From: an uncultured Cellulophaga sp.
GTDB taxonomy: Bacteria; Bacteroidota; Bacteroidia; Flavobacteriales; Flavobacteriaceae
Length of the DNA: 64,000 nucleotides
Direction of reading: 5' to 3'
Assembly (NCBI GenBank): GCA_947492955.1
Contig: CANLOV010000007.1
Location: forward strand, 186,001 to 250,000
Positions within the stretch are counted from its first letter, which is position 1; each line of letters begins with the position of its first letter. The notes under the pieces are model-generated. The model made no database searches. It saw nothing but the letters and a program-made list of their open reading frames with translations, and had not been told where the DNA came from. Below, piece after piece: positions 32,981 to 42,853 of this stretch. Position numbers and translations under genes: made by a program.

Positions 32981-33595
32981 TTAATGTCTGTTCTTTAAAA
33001 CTTCTACTATATCATTTAATTTAAAGCCTTTTGCTTGTAATAAAATAAGGTAATGAAATAATAAATCTGCACTTTCATCTAAAAACAGTTTATCATCGTT
33101 GTCTTTCGCTTCTATTACTACTTCAACAGCTTCCTCTCCCACTTTCTGAGCTACTTTATTAATTCCTTTTTGAAACAAAGATGATACATAGCTCATTTTT
33201 TCATCAATATTAGCTACATCTTCTGCTTGCTGTTTTCTATGGGTAATAACGCCTTCTAAAGTTGATAAAAAACCAAAATCATTTTCATTCTTCTCATTCC
33301 AACATGTATCACTTCCTGTATGGCAAGTTGGTCCTACAGGGTTTACTGTAATTAGTAGCGTATCATTATCGCAATCGTTCTTAATAGCTACTAAGTTTAA
33401 AAAGTTTCCGCTCTCTTCTCCTTTGGTCCACAAACGATTCTTTGTTCTGCTATAAAAAGTTACTTTTTTAGTTTCTTTTGTTTTCGCAAAAGCTTCCTCA
33501 TTCATATACCCCAACATTAAAACACTTTTTGTAGTTGCGTCTTGAATAATAGCTGGTACTAATCCATCATTATTTTTATTAAAATCTATTTTCAT
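32981..33595 (-). CDS. hisIE: Bifunctional phosphoribosyl-AMP cyclohydrolase / phosphoribosyl-ATP diphosphatase
   Basis: 204 aa; VLMLGYMNEEAF, RLWTKGEESGNFL, GPTCHTGSDTCW, C-terminal VGEEAVEVVIEAK. Confidence 0.95.
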   Translation of the reverse strand: MKIDFNKNNDGLVPAIIQDATTKSVLMLGYMNEEAFAKTKETKKVTFYSRTKNRLWTKGEESGNFLNLVAIKNDCDNDTLLITVNPVGPTCHTGSDTCWNEKNENDFGFLSTLEGVITHRKQQAEDVANIDEKMSYVSSLFQKGINKVAQKVGEEAVEVVIEAKDNDDKLFLDESADLLFHYLILLQAKGFKLNDIVEVLKNRH

Positions 33596-33645
33596 AATCT
33601 TAGTTATTCGTTGATGGTTCTGTTATCCATCAGAAAAAATATGTA

Positions 33646-34401
33646 TTATAGCCTAACTGGTATTCCTTTTTCTTGTAATGCTTCTTTTAAATCTTTAATC
33701 TCTATTTCTTTAAAATGAAACACACTTGCCGCTAAGGCTGCATCTGATTTTCCGTACACAAAGGTATCAATAAAATGCTGCACATTCCCTGCTCCGCCAG
33801 ATGCAATTATAGGAATATTTAATTCGGTAGATAATTTATACAAAGCTTCATCTGCAAAACCATCTTTTGTACCATCATTATCCATAGATGTAAATAATAT
33901 TTCTCCGGCTCCTCTTTGTTCTACTTCTTTAGCCCAATCGAACAAATTAAGTTCCGTAGGTACTTTACCACCTACCAAATGTACTATCCATTCGCCATCT
34001 ATTTGTTTTGCATCTATAGCTACAACTACACATTGCGAACCAAATTTACCTGCTAAATCGTTTATTAATTGTGGATTTTTAACTGCCGATGAATTAATAG
34101 AGACCTTGTCTGCTCCGTTTTGCAATAAAATATCTACATCTTCAATAGATGAAATTCCGCCACCTACTGTAAATGGTATGTTTACTTTTTCTGCCACACG
34201 TAGTACTAAGTCTGCCAATGTTCTTCGCCTTTCTTCTGTAGCCGATATATCTAAAAACACCAGCTCATCTGCTCCTGTTTCTGCATATATTTTTGCTAAC
34301 TCTACCGGGTCACCTGCATCTCTTAAGTCTACAAAATTAACGCCTTTAACGGTTCTTCCGTTTTTAATATCTAGGCAAGGAATTATTCTTTTTGTAAGCA
34401 T
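33646..34401 (-). CDS. hisF: Imidazole glycerol phosphate synthase cyclase subunit
   Basis: 251 aa; [42 protein letters not shown]. Confidence 0.96.
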
Positions 34402-34404
34402 AGC

Positions 34405-34746
34405 TTATCCTATTTTTGTTCCGTTTTTTACTTTACGTTCTGGTTGCATTAATATTACCTCTTTATCTTCTCCTAAACCTCCTAGTATTAAACATTCACT
34501 CATTATATTCGCTATTTGTTTAGGAGGAAAATTTACAACTGCAACTACTTGTTTTCCAATAATTTCTTCGCAAGTGTACAATTTTGTAACCTGAGCCGAT
34601 GTTTTTTTAATTCCCAAATCGCCAAAATCTATAGTAATTTTATACGCTGGATTTCTAACCTCTTTAAACACCTCTGCTGAAATAACAGTTCCTATTCGCA
34701 TTTCTACTTTAGAAAAATCTTCCCAGCTTAAACTATTGGCTTTCAT
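34405..34746 (-). CDS. CsaA-like tRNA-binding domain protein
   Basis: 113 aa; SWEDFSKVEMRIGTVISAE, KTSAQVTKLYTCEEIIGKQVVAVVNFPPKQIANIMSECLILG (CsaA/EMAP-II OB fold). Confidence 0.85.
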   Translation of the reverse strand: MKANSLSWEDFSKVEMRIGTVISAEVFKEVRNPAYKITIDFGDLGIKKTSAQVTKLYTCEEIIGKQVVAVVNFPPKQIANIMSECLILGGLGEDKEVILMQPERKVKNGTKIG

Positions 34747-34747
34747 A

Positions 34748-35476
34748 TTAACTATTTAATATAAAATCTTCTAATTGTTTTAAACTAATTCTATTTTCAT
34801 AAATAGCTTTACCGATAATAGTTCCTTCGCAACCTAATTCTGCTAATTTTGGCAACTCATCAAAAGTAGATATACCTCCACTAGCAATTAGTTTTAATCC
34901 TGAAGCTGTTTCTGATAAAATCTTTTTGTACAAATTAAAAGATGGGCCTTCTAACATACCATCCTTACTAATATCTGTACAGATTACATAGCTTACTCCT
35001 TCTTTTTGGTAGGTTTGAATAAAAGGAATTAATTCTTCCTTAGACTCTTCTAACCAACCAGAAACTGCTACTTTTTCATCTTTAGCATCTGCTCCCAGAA
35101 TAATTTTATCTGCTCCAAACTTTGCTAACCAATTGGTAAATGTTTCTTTATCTTTTACAGCAATACTACCTCCCGTAATTTGGTTGGCTCCACTTTCAAA
35201 AGCAATACGTAAATCATCATCCGTTTTTAATCCGCCACCAAAATCAATCTTTAAACTTGTTTTTTTAGCTATCTGCTCCAATACTTTATGGTTTACAATA
35301 TGTTTAGACTTGGCACCATCTAAATCTACCAAATGCAAATGTGTAATTCCATGTGCTTCAAACTGTTTTGCTACTTCTAAAGGGTTTTCATTATATATTT
35401 TCTTAGTATCGTAATCTCCCTTAGAAAGCCTTACACATTGTCCTTCTATAATATCTATTGCTGGTATAATTCTCAT
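34748..35476 (-). CDS. hisA: ProFAR isomerase
   Basis: 242 aa; [43 protein letters not shown]. Confidence 0.95.
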
Positions 35477-35591
35477 TGTTTAAGTTTTATATTAGAAATT
35501 AAAGTTTAGAAGTTTATTTTATTCTTCCTGGGTGTATTAATTGAAGAAACAATAATTGATAATATTTGATTTGCTTTATCATGAATTCTTT

Positions 35592-36188
35592 TTAGTAATC
35601 GAATATTTTATTTTCATCGGTTTCTTTAATCAATATATTACCTTTCAAATCTGTAATCTCTAATTTTATAAATTTTCCCTTTGTATAGTATATTTTTTTT
35701 AAATCGTTTTTTCTTTTATAAACAATGAAACCTTGTCTTAATCCATTTTCGTCATCATATCCAGTGGTGTCATTTTCAAATACAAAATATCTCTTTTCAT
35801 ACATTTTTAATTTAGAAATATCTTTATTCAATTCTTTGTTCTTTACATAGAATTTTGTTGCTAAATTAAATGGTTCTTCAAATTGAACTACAAAATCATA
35901 TGCACAAATACAGTCACATGGAGTCCCTATTTCTTTTAAATCAATCTTAACAATATTATCAATCTTGTTACTTTCCAATTTAAATTCAACACAGCAAGTA
36001 GCTTTAGTTGAAAAATGAATTATTCTAGCATTTTCAGTTATAGAGTCTTTCACAAGTCTTGTATTAAACCTATGAGCATCAATATTTTCATCGCACTTAA
36101 CACTAAGAATTTTAGATTTAACTTTAAATTCTTGTCCAAAAATTAAATTTGAAAAAAAAATTAACAATATAAAACTCAATTTATTCAT
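35592..36188 (-). CDS. Hypothetical secreted protein, inserted in his operon
   Basis: 198 aa; N-terminal signal peptide MNKLSFILLIFFSNLIFGQ. Confidence 0.75.
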   Translation of the reverse strand: MNKLSFILLIFFSNLIFGQEFKVKSKILSVKCDENIDAHRFNTRLVKDSITENARIIHFSTKATCCVEFKLESNKIDNIVKIDLKEIGTPCDCICAYDFVVQFEEPFNLATKFYVKNKELNKDISKLKMYEKRYFVFENDTTGYDDENGLRQGFIVYKRKNDLKKIYYTKGKFIKLEITDLKGNILIKETDENKIFDY

Positions 36189-36237
36189 TATGAATACACT
36201 AAAATCTATTTAACAAGTATTTTGATTTATAATTAGT

Positions 36238-36822
36238 TTACACTATTTCTAAAAAATTCTTTAAAATTTTCTCCCCCACACTACTACTTTTTTCTGGATG
36301 AAATTGCGTTCCGTAAAAATTATCTTTCTGCAAAGCTGCACTATAACTAATATCGTACTCTGCTTCTGCAATAGTTTCTTTACATAAAGGCGCATAAAAA
36401 CTGTGTACCAAATAAATATACTCTTTCTCTGCTATCTCTTTAAATAGGTTAGATTTTAGATTGGTAATTTGATTCCAACCTATCTGGGGTACTTTTACTC
36501 TATTAGAAAACTTTATAACATCTACATTAAAAATTCCTAAGCCTACAGTATTTCCTTCTTCCGATGAATTACACATGAGTTGCATTCCTAAACAGATACC
36601 AAAAACAGGTTGCTTTAAGGTCGGTACTAACTTATCTAGTCCACTTTCTCTAAGCTTTTTCATGGCACTGCTAGCTTCCCCTACTCCTGGAAATATTACT
36701 TTATCAGCAGCTTTTATTTCTTCTACATTATCACTTAAAACAGCCTCATAGCCTAAACGTTGTATCGCAAATTTAATACTCTGTATGTTTCCTGCTCCGT
36801 AATTTATGATTACTATTTTCAT
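36238..36822 (-). CDS. hisH: Imidazole glycerol phosphate synthase glutaminase subunit
   Basis: 194 aa; MKIVIINYGAGNIQSI, VFGICLGMQLM, YGTQFHPEKSS. Confidence 0.96.
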   Translation of the reverse strand: MKIVIINYGAGNIQSIKFAIQRLGYEAVLSDNVEEIKAADKVIFPGVGEASSAMKKLRESGLDKLVPTLKQPVFGICLGMQLMCNSSEEGNTVGLGIFNVDVIKFSNRVKVPQIGWNQITNLKSNLFKEIAEKEYIYLVHSFYAPLCKETIAEAEYDISYSAALQKDNFYGTQFHPEKSSSVGEKILKNFLEIV

Positions 36823-36897
36823 TTTTATATAAGTAGTTAAGGAGTTAAGAATGTAAGTAGTTAAAAAACATCAACGCCATAATTCTTAACCACTTAA

Positions 36898-38037
36898 TTA
36901 TAACATTCCTTTTGTACTTGGTAAAAACATTTTATTAGCATCGCGTTTTACTGCCATTTTCATTGCTTTTGCAAATGCTTTAAAAATACCTTCTATTTTA
37001 TGGTGCTCGTTGTCTCCTTCTGCTTTTATATTTAAATTACATTTTGCGCCGTCTGTAAACGATTTAAATAAGTGTAAAAACATTTCTGTTGGCATATCGC
37101 CTATTTTTTCTCGTTTAAAATCGGCTTCCCAAACCAACCAAGGGCGACCACCAAAATCTACCGCTGCTTGCGCCAAACAATCATCCATAGGTAAACAGAA
37201 TCCGTAACGTTCTATGCCTAGCTTGTTTCCTAATGCTTTAGAGAATAATTCTCCTAAAGCTATCATCGTATCTTCTATAGTATGGTGCTCGTCTACCTCT
37301 AAATCTCCATCTACCTTTACCGTTAAATCCATTGCTCCATGGCGACCAATTTGATCTAACATATGATCAAAGAAATGTAAACCAGTAGCTATATCGTTTT
37401 TACCAGAACCATCTAGATTTAGTTTAATATATATCTTAGTTTCATTGGTATTTCTTGTTATTTCTGCTACACGGTCTTCTAATTTTAAAAACTCATAGAT
37501 TGCTGCCCAATCTGTAGATGTTAGGGCTATACAATCTAGAATAGCTTGTTTATCTGTTTCTATTTCATCTGCTCCTAACTCAGGGTCTTCTGATAAAAAA
37601 ATACCTTTAGCTCCTAAATTCTTTGCCAATTCCATATCAGTAATACGGTCTCCCAAAACAAATGAATTTTCTAAATCGTATTGTTCTTTATCAAAATACT
37701 GCGTTAACAATCCTGTTCTAGGTTTGCGAGTATCCGCATTTTCATGCGGAAAAGTTTTATCTATATGTATAGCACTGAATACTACTCCTTCTTTTTCAAA
37801 AGCTGAAATAATCTTATGCTGAGGTGGCCAAAACGTATCTTCAGGGAAAGAGTCTGTCCCTAAACCATCTTGATTTGTTACCATCACCAATTCATAATCT
37901 AATTCAGCGGCAATTTTTGCCATATATTGGAATACTTTTGGGTAGTATTCTAACTTTTCTAAACTATCTAATTGATAATCTACTGGTGGCTCTAATACCA
38001 GTGTACCATCTCTGTCTATAAATAATACTTTTTTCAT
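36898..38037 (-). CDS. hisB: Bifunctional histidinol-phosphatase / imidazoleglycerol-phosphate dehydratase
   Basis: 379 aa; HAD motif [13 protein letters not shown] plus IGPD motifs [39 protein letters not shown]. Confidence 0.96.
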
Positions 38038-38187
38038 AATGCTGAACTTGTTTCAGTATCTGTTCGTTATAAAACCCTAAACTCATTGAGGGCTTACTAT
38101 TTTATTTCTAATATTTTTGATTTAGGATTTAACTCTTTAATCAAATTCCATTTCCAATCTGCTCATTCAACCGTTCCTGAATCAAGT

Positions 38188-39234
38188 TCAGGATTTCGAA
38201 ATAGATTGCAATACTGCAATCAATTTCTCATTCTCCCCAGGTGTTCCTACTGTAAAACGCAAGGTGTTTTCACATAAAGCCTGCGTTGTTCTATTACGAA
38301 CCACTATTCCTTTTTCTAATAACTGATTATACCTTTTTGTTGCGTTATCTACTTTTGCTAGTATAAAATTAGCATCGGAATTATAAACTTTAGTTACATA
38401 GCTAACCTGTGCTAATGTTTTAGATAATTTTTCTCTTTCTTCTAAAATAACAGCTATTTCTGTAGCTACAGATTTTGTATCTATAACACGTTCTAATGCT
38501 CTTTGTTGCGTAAGCTCATTTACATTATAAGGTGGTTTAATTTTATTTAAAACAGTTATAATCTCTTCTGAGGCATAACACAAGCCTAAACGTATACCTG
38601 CCATTCCGTATGCTTTAGATAAAGTTTGTGTTACTATAAGATTTGGGTACTTTTCTAATTGATTAATCCAAGTATTTGTTTTAGAAAAATCTATATATGC
38701 TTCATCTATAACCACTAAGCCATTAAAACTTTCTAATATTTTTATGATACTATCTTCTGAAAAACTGTTTCCCGTAGGGTTATTAGGTGAGCATAAGAAT
38801 ATAAACTTTGTATGAGTAGTTACTGCATCCAATATTTTGTCTACATTGGGTTCAAAATCATCTGTTAGTACTACTTCCTTGTTCTCTACCGTATTTATAC
38901 CACATAACACTTTATACATGCCATAAGTTGGTGGTAGCGTTATAATATTATCTTTTTGGGGTTCACAAAAAGCTCTAAATAATAGGTCTAAAACCTCATC
39001 GCTACCATTACCTAACAAAATATTTTCTGTCTTTACACCTTTTTGCTTTGCTAAAACCGCTTTTAAATTGCGTTGCTGAGGGTCTGGATACCTATTTACT
39101 CCATTCTCGAACGGATTTTCATTTGCATCTAAAAACACCATAGCAGAACCATCTGACACATATTCGTCTCTTGCAGAAGAATAGGGTTGTAAAGCCTTTA
39201 CATTTTCTCTTGTTATATTATCTAAACTAAACAT
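38188..39234 (-). CDS. hisC: Histidinol-phosphate aminotransferase
   Basis: 348 aa; DANENPFENGVNRYPDP, CSPNNPTGNSF, TLSKAYGMAGIRLGL. Confidence 0.95.
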   Translation of the reverse strand: MFSLDNITRENVKALQPYSSARDEYVSDGSAMVFLDANENPFENGVNRYPDPQQRNLKAVLAKQKGVKTENILLGNGSDEVLDLLFRAFCEPQKDNIITLPPTYGMYKVLCGINTVENKEVVLTDDFEPNVDKILDAVTTHTKFIFLCSPNNPTGNSFSEDSIIKILESFNGLVVIDEAYIDFSKTNTWINQLEKYPNLIVTQTLSKAYGMAGIRLGLCYASEEIITVLNKIKPPYNVNELTQQRALERVIDTKSVATEIAVILEEREKLSKTLAQVSYVTKVYNSDANFILAKVDNATKRYNQLLEKGIVVRNRTTQALCENTLRFTVGTPGENEKLIAVLQSISKS

Positions 39235-40529
39235 TATTCTAAACTCTTTAAACGTAATGTTACTGCATTTTTATGTGCTTGTAATCCTTCTGCTTCTGCC
39301 ATTAACTCAATAGCCTTTCCTATTTCTTGAATACCTGTTTCTGATATTTTCTGAAATGTCATGCTCTTCATGAAACTATCTAAATTAACCCCACTATACT
39401 GTTTGGCATAGCCATTTGTTGGTAAGGTATGGTTAGTTCCAGATGCATAATCGCCCGCACTTTCTGGCGTATAATTCCCTATAAAAACAGAGCCTGCATT
39501 TTCTATACTATTGATATATTTTTCTTCATTAGCTACACATACAATATAATGCTCTGGGCCGTATTCGTTAATTAAATCTATAGCTATTTCATCATTGGCT
39601 ACGTAAATTAATTTGCTGTTAGCTATCGCTTTTTCTGCAATATCTTTTCGTGGTAGATCATTTATCTGTTTTGTTATTTCATTCTCTACTTTTAATATAA
39701 ACTCTTTTGAAGTAGAAACTAATATTACCTGACTATCTACGCCATGCTCTGCTTGGCTTAATAAATCTGATGCTACAAAAGCTGCATTTGCTGTATCGTC
39801 TGCAACCACTAATAACTCACTTGGGCCAGCAGGCATATCTATAGCTACACCGTGTTTAGTTGCTATTTGTTTTGCTACTGTTACAAACTGGTTTCCTGGT
39901 CCAAATATTTTATATACTTGTGGTATACTTTCTGTTCCAAACGTCATCCCTGCAATAGCTTGTATGCCACCTACTTTAAATATTTTAGTAACTCCACATA
40001 AATTAGCGGTATACAATATTGCTGGGTGTATTTTTCCTTCCTTATTTGGTGGAGAACATAATACAATTTCTTTACAACCCGCAATATTCGCTGGTGTTGC
40101 TAACATTAATATGGTAGAAAATAAAGGAGCCGTTCCTCCTGGTATATATAAGCCTACTTTTTGGATTGGTCTTTTTTCTTGCCAGCATAAAACACCATTA
40201 GCTGTTTCTACCTCAACTTTAGTAGTTTTCTGAGCTGCATGGAAAACTTCAACATTTTGCTTTGCTACTGCTATTGCTTCTTTTAAGTCATCTGATACTA
40301 AAGCTTTTGCTTCTTCTATCTCTACTGCATTTACTAAAAAATCAGTTATTAAAACGCCATCAAATTTTTCAGTGTACTTTTTTAATATGATATCTCCTTC
40401 TGCTTCAACTTCTTTAAAAACTGAATTTACTGTTGCTTCAATATCAGCAACGGTTTGTGTTGGTCTTAAAAGAACCTCTTTCCAACTTTCTTTTTCCGGA
40501 TTATATATTTTATTCATTATTTCTATCAA
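39234..40529 (-). CDS. hisD: Histidinol dehydrogenase
   Basis: 431 aa; VGLYIPGGTAPLFSTILMLATPA, FGPGNQFVTVAKQ, MPAGPSELLVVAD. Confidence 0.96.
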   Translation of the reverse strand: MIEIMNKIYNPEKESWKEVLLRPTQTVADIEATVNSVFKEVEAEGDIILKKYTEKFDGVLITDFLVNAVEIEEAKALVSDDLKEAIAVAKQNVEVFHAAQKTTKVEVETANGVLCWQEKRPIQKVGLYIPGGTAPLFSTILMLATPANIAGCKEIVLCSPPNKEGKIHPAILYTANLCGVTKIFKVGGIQAIAGMTFGTESIPQVYKIFGPGNQFVTVAKQIATKHGVAIDMPAGPSELLVVADDTANAAFVASDLLSQAEHGVDSQVILVSTSKEFILKVENEITKQINDLPRKDIAEKAIANSKLIYVANDEIAIDLINEYGPEHYIVCVANEEKYINSIENAGSVFIGNYTPESAGDYASGTNHTLPTNGYAKQYSGVNLDSFMKSMTFQKISETGIQEIGKAIELMAEAEGLQAHKNAVTLRLKSLE

Positions 40530-40956
40530 AAACGTTTCTCATATGGTAACCTTCGGCAACATAACCTTGGTTTTCCCAGAATTTAATACCTTTTTTATTA
40601 TCTACATAACAATTGATCTCTGTGCTATTACAACCAATTTCTTTAGCATAATTATAAACCCAATCTAACATTAACTTACCAACACCATAGCTTCTATATT
40701 CTTTTGCTATAAAAACATTATCGGCTTCAATATGCTTTCCGATGTAGAATTTGTTTAAAATCCAGATACCACAAATTCCTATTAGCTTATTATTTATATA
40801 TGCACCTATACATTGATAATTATTTGCATGCTTAATACTTTCTAGCCTTTCTAAAAGTACTCCTTTAGATAACTTACCGTTATTTAACTCGTATACTAAC
40901 GGCAAAATAGTGTGTAACTCTTGTTTAGGAATTAAAACTATTTTGGGATTTTCCAT
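40510..40956 (-). CDS. GNAT-family N-acetyltransferase
   Basis: 148 aa; VFIAKEYRSYGVGKLMLDWVYNYAKEIGCNSTEINCY, GIKFWENQGY; overlaps hisD start. Confidence 0.85.
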   Translation of the reverse strand: MENPKIVLIPKQELHTILPLVYELNNGKLSKGVLLERLESIKHANNYQCIGAYINNKLIGICGIWILNKFYIGKHIEADNVFIAKEYRSYGVGKLMLDWVYNYAKEIGCNSTEINCYVDNKKGIKFWENQGYVAEGYHMRNVFDRNNE

Positions 40957-40967
40957 AATAATTTAGG

Positions 40968-41825
40968 CTACAAAACCATTTTTTCTATTGGGCAAACTAA
41001 AATACCTTCTGCTCCTGCCTGCTTTAACTCATCTATAACTTCCCAAAATTTATTTTTATCTATTACCGTGTGTACAGAACTCCAACCTTCTTCAGCCAAT
41101 GGCAATACCGTTGGGCTTCGCATACCTGGTAACAATTTTGTAATAGTAGCTAACTTATCATTAGGGGCATTTAAAAGTATATATTTAGATTGTCTGGCTT
41201 TTAATACCGACTGTATTCTAAATACTAATTTTTCTAAAATTGCTTTTCTTTCTTCTGATATTTTAGGAGATACTGCCAGTACTGCTTCACTTTTAAGCAT
41301 TACCTCTACTTCTTTTAACCCATTTTTAAATAAAGTACTACCACTAGAAACAATATCACAAATACCATCTGCCAAACCTATATTTGGAGCTATTTCTACA
41401 GAACCGTTAATAATATGCAAATCTGCATTTACTCCTTTTTCTTTTAAATATTGTTTTACGGTATTAGGGTAAGATGTTGCTATACGTTTACCTTCAAAAA
41501 ATGTTACAGAATTATATTCCGTAGCTTTAGGTACTGCTAAAGACACTTTACATTTAGAAAACCCTAATTTTTCTGCTATAGCTATGTCTTCTCCTTTTTC
41601 TACTAAAACATTTTCTCCGATAATAGCAATATCTACTACGCCATCTCTTAGATACTGTGGTATATCTCCGTTTCTAAGGAAGAAAGCTTCTAAAGGAAAT
41701 TTACGTGCCGAAGCTTTTAATTGGTCTTTACCATTCTCTATAGAAATTCCACAATTTTTTAATAATTCTAAGGAGTCTTGGTTTAATCTTCCAGACTTCT
41801 GGATGGCAATTCTAATTTTAGTCAT
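40968..41825 (-). CDS. hisG: ATP phosphoribosyltransferase (long form)
   Basis: 285 aa; IRIAIQKSGRLNQDSLELL, DIAIIGENVL, GLADGICDIVSSGSTL; C-terminal GAEGILVCPIEKMV. Confidence 0.95.
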   Translation of the reverse strand: MTKIRIAIQKSGRLNQDSLELLKNCGISIENGKDQLKASARKFPLEAFFLRNGDIPQYLRDGVVDIAIIGENVLVEKGEDIAIAEKLGFSKCKVSLAVPKATEYNSVTFFEGKRIATSYPNTVKQYLKEKGVNADLHIINGSVEIAPNIGLADGICDIVSSGSTLFKNGLKEVEVMLKSEAVLAVSPKISEERKAILEKLVFRIQSVLKARQSKYILLNAPNDKLATITKLLPGMRSPTVLPLAEEGWSSVHTVIDKNKFWEVIDELKQAGAEGILVCPIEKMVL

Positions 41826-41869
41826 TTTATATTATTTAATGTTTGATAACCAAACAAGGTTAAAAACAA

Positions 41870-41895
41870 AACCCGCTTGATTTCTCAAACGGGTT
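41870..41895 (-). terminator. Terminator hairpin in hisG leader (candidate attenuator)
   Basis: RNA AACCCGUUUGA-GAAA-UCAAGCGGGUU-UUGUUUUU: 11-bp stem with one G.U, GNRA-like loop, U tract, upstream of hisG ATG. Confidence 0.85.
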
Positions 41896-41927
41896 AGATA
41901 TATATGTTTAAACACGACAATACATTT

Positions 41928-41981
41928 CTAGCTCGCTTGATAGCAAGTATTGAAATGATGATGTGTATTTTTATTTCTCAT
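41928..41981 (-). CDS. hisL: Candidate his leader peptide MRNKNTHHHFNTCYQAS
   Basis: ATG AGA AAT AAA AAT ACA CAT CAT CAT TTC AAT ACT TGC TAT CAA GCG AGC TAG; three consecutive His codons, followed by terminator and hisG. Confidence 0.8.
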   Translation of the reverse strand: MRNKNTHHHFNTCYQAS

Positions 41982-41988
41982 TATGCGA

Positions 41989-41996
41989 CAAAAATA
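41989..41996 (-). promoter_or_regulatory. Possible Bacteroidota -7 element (TATTTTTG) upstream of his leader
   Basis: Matches TAnnTTTG; upstream -33 element is weak, and the implied 5' UTR before the leader ATG would be only a few nt. Confidence 0.3.
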
Positions 41997-42037: not shown

Positions 42038-42853
42038 TTAGTTGTTTCCTAATATTAATGGTAAGCCAGAGTCTCCACTACCCACAACTATTACTTTAGC
42101 ATTTGGAGAATCTGATAGTTTTAGCGTTGCTTCTATACCTTTATCCTGTAAAATTTTATCGGTTAACGAGGCACTTAATATTTTATTTGCATCTGCTTTA
42201 CCTTGTGCTTCTATACGCTGTTTTTCTGCTTCTTTTTGAGCGGTTACTAACCTAAACTCATATTCTAAAGATTCTTGTTCTTGTTTTAATTTACGCTCAA
42301 TTGCTTCTTTAATTGTATTAGGTAATGTTACATCTCTTACTAATATTTCATTTAATTGAATATATTGCCCGTCTACAATCTTTTTTGTTTCTTCATAAAT
42401 TTCTGCTTGTATAGCATCCCTTTTACTAGAGTATAATTGTTCTGGTGTATAACGCCCAACTACACTTCTTGCTGCTGACCTAATGGTTGGCAATAATACA
42501 CGTTGTATGTAATCTTTCCCTTTTTCTTGGTGTAACTTTCCTAAAAATTCTTGCTTTGGCTGAAACCATGCAGAAGCATCTAATTTAATCTCTAATCCGT
42601 TAGAAGATAATACTTGCATTCTTTCAAAAACTTCTTGCTGTCTTACTTCATACACAAAAACATCATTCCACGGGGCTACTAAATGAAATCCTTCTCCCAT
42701 TGCAGGCTTATCTGTTACTACACCTCCACCAAAAGTCTTATATAACACACCAGCTTCACCGGAATTTATTGTTACAGCTGACTTAGATATTAAAATAAAT
42801 AATAGTATAGCTCCAAAAACTATAGGTACTGCAATCTTAGGTAATTTATCCAT
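42038..42853 (-). CDS. Prohibitin/SPFH-domain membrane protein
   Basis: 271 aa; N-terminal TM, INSGEAGVLYKTFGG, VVGRYTPEQLYSSKRDAIQAEI. Confidence 0.88.
   Translation of the reverse strand: MDKLPKIAVPIVFGAILLFILISKSAVTINSGEAGVLYKTFGGGVVTDKPAMGEGFHLVAPWNDVFVYEVRQQEVFERMQVLSSNGLEIKLDASAWFQPKQEFLGKLHQEKGKDYIQRVLLPTIRSAARSVVGRYTPEQLYSSKRDAIQAEIYEETKKIVDGQYIQLNEILVRDVTLPNTIKEAIERKLKQEQESLEYEFRLVTAQKEAEKQRIEAQGKADANKILSASLTDKILQDKGIEATLKLSDSPNAKVIVVGSGDSGLPLILGNN

Follow-up and report, generated by a model that had tools for sequence, protein, structure and literature searches.

Histidine attenuators described to date

The histidine attenuator of Enterobacteriaceae (RF00514, His_leader) combines a His-rich leader with mutually exclusive helices and a terminator before hisG, and it shares these features and its switch logic with an element located upstream of hisG in an uncultured Cellulophaga sp. 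Compared with the enterobacterial family, the Cellulophaga element stays below the cut-off, has a shorter His run and differs in sequence. The histidine attenuators of Firmicutes possess a run of three to five His codons and a terminator/antiterminator arrangement, and are missed by RF00514 [PMC9413887]. All three properties recur in Cellulophaga; however, the Firmicutes attenuators are found in a few lineages only, whereas the Bacteroidota element is near-universal in its family and common in its class. The authors of a broad attenuator survey in 2010 had known of leader peptides in Proteobacteria and Actinobacteria only, and added Firmicutes to these.

For the Flavobacteriaceae, the main text of a 2021 transcriptome study of Flavobacterium psychrophilum reports a structured 5' element upstream of hisG, which is conserved in the family and has no Rfam hits, as well as clues for leader-peptide attenuation upstream of amino-acid operons [PMC9723704]. 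This is very probably the same element as the one in Cellulophaga. The original prediction for the present locus had left aside whether the flavobacterial form had already been described, and the study answers this in part: a conserved hisG 5' element and attenuation clues are on record, while anatomy, helices and covariation of the hisG element are absent from its main text, whose scope stops at the family. Anatomy, covariation and the spread over the phylum are described here, the spread being possibly new.

The leader region of hisG

The window, that is the whole stretch of 64,000 nucleotides that was analysed, contains a his operon on the minus strand. Its first gene is preceded by a 17-codon ORF that carries a codon run (HHH) for the operon's own amino acid, and an intrinsic terminator lies between this ORF and the first structural gene:

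41981-41928, minus strand: leader peptide ORF MRNKNTHHHFNTCYQAS, ATG to TAG (sequence and relatives)
41963-41955, minus strand: sensor codons CAU CAU CAU, three consecutive His (sequence; 3 to 6 His in relatives)
41895-41870, minus strand: intrinsic terminator hairpin, 11 bp (terminator scan and family alignment)
41861..41869, minus strand: U-rich tail of the terminator (sequence)
40968-41825, minus strand: hisG, first gene of the controlled operon (PF01634 and PF08029)
32981..40956, minus strand: remaining his operon with inserted non-his genes (ORFs and Pfam)

The leader ORF agrees base by base with the His-run ORF first proposed on this strand, and the terminator and U tract likewise lie where they had been placed ahead of hisG, the hairpin being the only site of terminator type within the 900 bases that were scanned (shuffles would give 0.3). 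The 136-nt leader folds with -34.9 kcal/mol (z = -4.5 against dinucleotide shuffles). Within the operon, hisF and hisIE were named from their own sequence and not by Pfam scan. The non-his genes encode a tRNA_bind domain protein (34405-34746), a protein without Pfam match (35592-36188) and a GNAT acetyltransferase (40510-40956), all on the minus strand, and the last of these genes adjoins hisG directly downstream.

Conservation in Bacteroidota

hisG was located in genomes at the genus, family, order, class and phylum levels, with taxonomy used for kinship levels only, and the sample within the class amounts to 170 hisG-upstream loci (30 loci and 140 stretches). A leader was recorded where an ORF with an ATG start, 50-350 bases upstream of hisG, has at least three His in six codons, a pattern seen in 0-2% of dinucleotide-shuffled DNA and in about 1% of the shuffled upstream regions of the genus. 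Such leaders are present at 18/18 loci of the genus, 95/98 in the rest of the family, 10/10 in other families of the order and 34/44 in other orders of the class. Of the three family loci without a hit, two start with GTG and one has no more than two His side by side; with the ATG start required, no leader is recognisable in the remaining 10/44 loci from other orders. The leader is followed by a terminator hairpin at 162 of the 170 loci in a permissive scan, which includes a few weak hairpins. In the family alignment the His run differs by whole codons, and in the Cellulophaga genome itself the model match is unique (E=1e-19 versus 0.09 for the next). Outside the class, a His-rich ORF, in some cases with a GTG or TTG start, occurs at 12/15 loci with a clearly related HisG, a count that carries no shuffle control. 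No His leader was found at the 5/5 phylum loci with a divergent HisG (L202-L206, about 31% identity), a hint that the attenuator goes with a single lineage of hisG.

This conservation bears on two other explanations. A Band_7 gene (42038-42853) lies on the same strand and ends 142 bases ahead of the hairpin, which might merely be the terminator of that gene, the short ORF being incidental. We regard this as exceedingly unlikely: chance falls far short of accounting for the conservation of the His leader with its start and location, the sequences of leaders and terminators vary in concert over the class, and a promoter-like box separates the leader from the Band_7 gene. Structure and a terminator in the 5' region of an amino-acid operon would also suit a riboswitch or T-box, in which the leader RNA directly senses histidine or uncharged tRNA. 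Here, the T-box covariance model matches neither the window element nor any of 20 relatives, Rfam gives no riboswitch match for the same set, and the start codon, the frame and the whole-codon His insertions are conserved, all of which makes direct sensing by the RNA extremely improbable. No Rfam family reaches its cut-off on the element. RF00514 does not match it and, among the 20 relatives, scores only L092, weakly, at 34.2 bits versus a gathering cut-off of 49 bits. SSRC10 and RcsR1 were rejected as its identity, as their Rfam matches are at chance level only.

Mutually exclusive helices

A ribosome-mediated attenuator depends on alternative pairings, and the leader RNA provides an antiterminator and an anti-antiterminator (1:2) helix that exclude each other:

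41943..41957, minus strand: 5' side of the 1:2 (anti-antiterminator) hairpin, CAUUUC and CUUGC (covariation)
41923..41936, minus strand: 3' side of the 1:2 hairpin, GCGAG and GAAAUG (covariation)
41940-41934, minus strand: antiterminator segment 2, UCAAGCG (own-versus-swapped-arm pairing, family alignment, folding)
41891-41885, minus strand: antiterminator segment 3, CGUUUGA, in the 5' arm of the terminator (own-versus-swapped-arm pairing, family alignment, folding)

The outer stem of the 1:2 hairpin joins CAUUUC (41957-41952) to GAAAUG (41928-41923) and the inner stem joins CUUGC (41947-41943) to GCGAG (41936-41932). The UCAAGCG of the leader is identical to part of the 3' arm of the terminator.

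All column pairs of an alignment of 79 family leaders were scanned without a prior structure and ranked by two-sided changes. The outer 1:2 stem, from the last His codon onward paired with the bases around the stop, came first and the antiterminator, with 9 bp, second; the inner 1:2 stem ranked fifth and the terminator, the longest helix of all, eighth. The 1:2 hairpin is 84% paired and has 58 cells changed on both sides versus 19 in shuffles, and the terminator is 97.5% paired with 12 versus 0.8. The antiterminator is 93% paired with 34 two-sided changes versus 16, but these fall mostly in the outermost pair and the core seven pairs are nearly invariant, so that within the family this helix is supported mainly by its persistence. 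Pairing drops sharply for all three helices when the partners are slid by 1-3 columns. RNAalifold returned the terminator only from the family alignment and not the alternative helices, presumably because these exclude each other.

A stronger test of the antiterminator than family covariation is offered by exchanging arms across the class, where terminator sequences often differ (GGCUUACC, CCUACCUG, GCCCACCC and others). The leader segment behind the His run complements its own terminator arm with a mean of -14.0 kcal/mol, versus -10.0 kcal/mol when the arms of different species are exchanged (47 sequences, p=4e-11); this p value is optimistic, as species are not independent, while shared terminator types make the swap control conservative. 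In one family member (L026, 2366-2501, minus strand), which has a different terminator (GUCCUUCCUGA...) and the leader MYNLIHHTHHFFSDQHRVS, pairing is still possible between UCGGG of the leader segment and CCUGA of the locus's own terminator. Both pairings in Cellulophaga had been proposed beforehand and their coordinates hold: CAUUUC/GAAAUG with the inner CUUGC/GCGAG covaries in the family alignment, and the 7-bp UCAAGCG/CGUUUGA helix emerged from the structure-free scan and the own-arm test. The accompanying expectation that relatives would keep the His codons and the stems was borne out: relatives share the His run as well as the terminator and the two alternative helices, with compensatory changes.

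Most family leaders end in a C-terminal Gln-Ala (CAA GCG or similar) plus one residue; the two conserved residues are what the antiterminator segment encodes when read as codons. In L029, L030, L031 and L036 a stop codon falls inside the segment and the following bases are still GCGA or ACGA; the segment is constrained as RNA. Whole-codon variation of the His run, together with RNA kept past an early stop, fits a translated sensor that overlaps an RNA switch. The same observations weigh against the view that the ORF is there for its product, a small peptide with a function such as metal binding by its His residues, with the RNA structure being secondary. While the His run is conserved and some leader peptides do act in trans (peTrpL of S. 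meliloti), the peptide outside the His run is not conserved over the class, the four loci above keep the RNA sequence beyond the end of the peptide, and the Gln-Ala is accounted for by the antiterminator; a functional peptide is hence very unlikely.

Predicted switch

Partition-function folding was carried out with the polymerase at the terminator loop and an assumed ribosome footprint. In the truncated transcript without a ribosome, the 1:2 hairpin has P=0.95 and the antiterminator P=0.04, whereas the antiterminator reaches P=0.97-0.98 once a ribosome is stalled on one of the His codons, whichever of the three it is. With the ribosome at the stop, neither of the two helices is formed (antiterminator P=0.00) and the terminator then forms. 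In 112/115 family and 40/41 other sequences, the terminator 5' arm pairs more with upstream bases under a His stall than when the ribosome sits at the stop; its pairing under a His stall also exceeds that with shuffled spacers in 103/115 and 34/41, respectively. The ensemble thus behaves as the classical switch that had been read from the alternative pairings in the original prediction. At equilibrium, the fully transcribed terminator wins in every folded state, including that with a stalled ribosome, and control therefore has to be kinetic. The classical trp attenuator behaves likewise: its complete terminator wins in every state and its control is kinetic.

Taken together, we consider the element, with a probability of roughly 0.93, to attenuate transcription of the his operon by way of a translating ribosome, and very probably to turn the operon on when histidine is low. 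In the mechanism that we infer, including its start site, ribosome stalling, His-dependent termination and kinetic control, transcription would begin some 3 nt ahead of the leader ATG, and a ribosome following the RNA polymerase would translate the 17-codon leader. When charged tRNA-His is plentiful, the ribosome would reach the stop and cover UCAAGCG, and transcription would terminate before hisG. When it is scarce, the ribosome would stall at the three His codons and block the 5' side of the 1:2 hairpin, leaving UCAAGCG to pair with CGUUUGA and allowing read-through into hisG. A leader that is not translated would form the 1:2 hairpin, and termination would follow.

A probably near-leaderless leader mRNA

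The proposed start follows from a putative promoter box close to the leader:

41989..41996, minus strand: putative promoter -7 box TATTTTTG, Bacteroidetes consensus TAnnTTTG (sequence and genus comparison)
41982..41984, minus strand: putative 3-nt 5' UTR, start at about 41984 (box position)

The box ends 7 nt from the leader ATG, and TAnnTTTG or TAnnTTTA is found at exactly this distance in 18/18 genus members, the last position being mostly A, not G. A box 6-9 nt from the ATG occurs at 66/116 family loci, versus 1.9% in shuffles. In other family members it is 17-21 nt away, and the predicted near-leaderless layout is thus a feature of a clade. In F. psychrophilum the promoter box occupies -12 to -5, which puts the expected 5' end of the leader mRNA about 3 nt ahead of the ATG; judged by box position, this mRNA is probably near-leaderless. 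Leaderless mRNAs make up only 5.5% of mRNAs in F. psychrophilum. The leader mRNA of the S. meliloti trpL attenuator has a mapped start at the leader ATG and undergoes leaderless translation [PMC7298713]. That attenuator is Trp-sensing and alphaproteobacterial, whereas the start in Cellulophaga would lie about 3 nt upstream of the ATG, as deduced from the box.

Other candidate amino-acid leaders in the same genome

Upstream of a chorismate-binding gene (253255-254007; L180, own genome C3), the leader ORF MINENANTWWWSNLRKKS is followed by a strong terminator (fold z = -5.2), and TATATTTG is found 8 nt before the leader ATG. This is likely a Trp attenuator of trpE in the same style as the hisG element. 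Similarly, the leader ORF MKATQKYFWNGFNFYFFFKRSMGLF and then a strong terminator (fold z = -6.9) precede a prephenate dehydratase gene (349489-350025; L183, own genome C1), likely forming a Phe attenuator of pheA. pheA is also among the conserved 5' elements reported in the F. psychrophilum study [PMC9723704]. The ilvD upstream region has no convincing leader.

Implications

The element represents a textbook mechanism in a poorly covered phylum, in most of which it is kept. Some attenuators in Bacteroidetes/Chlorobi were reportedly included in an attenuator survey of 2004. We see even odds for a wider proposal, in which the His attenuator would be an ancestral, near-universal device of Bacteroidota his operons that does not derive from the proteobacterial His_leader, that is translated, in a large part of the Flavobacteriaceae, from a near-leaderless mRNA in a phylum without reliance on Shine-Dalgarno sites, and that has like attenuators at trpE and pheA of the same genome. 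Covariation indicates a wide occurrence in Bacteroidota of classical attenuation by leader peptides at the level of histidine synthesis; no Rfam family reaches it there, and the alignment could serve as the seed for one. The leader, if near-leaderless, would also provide a handle on the coupling of translation and transcription in a phylum where initiation does not depend on Shine-Dalgarno sequences.
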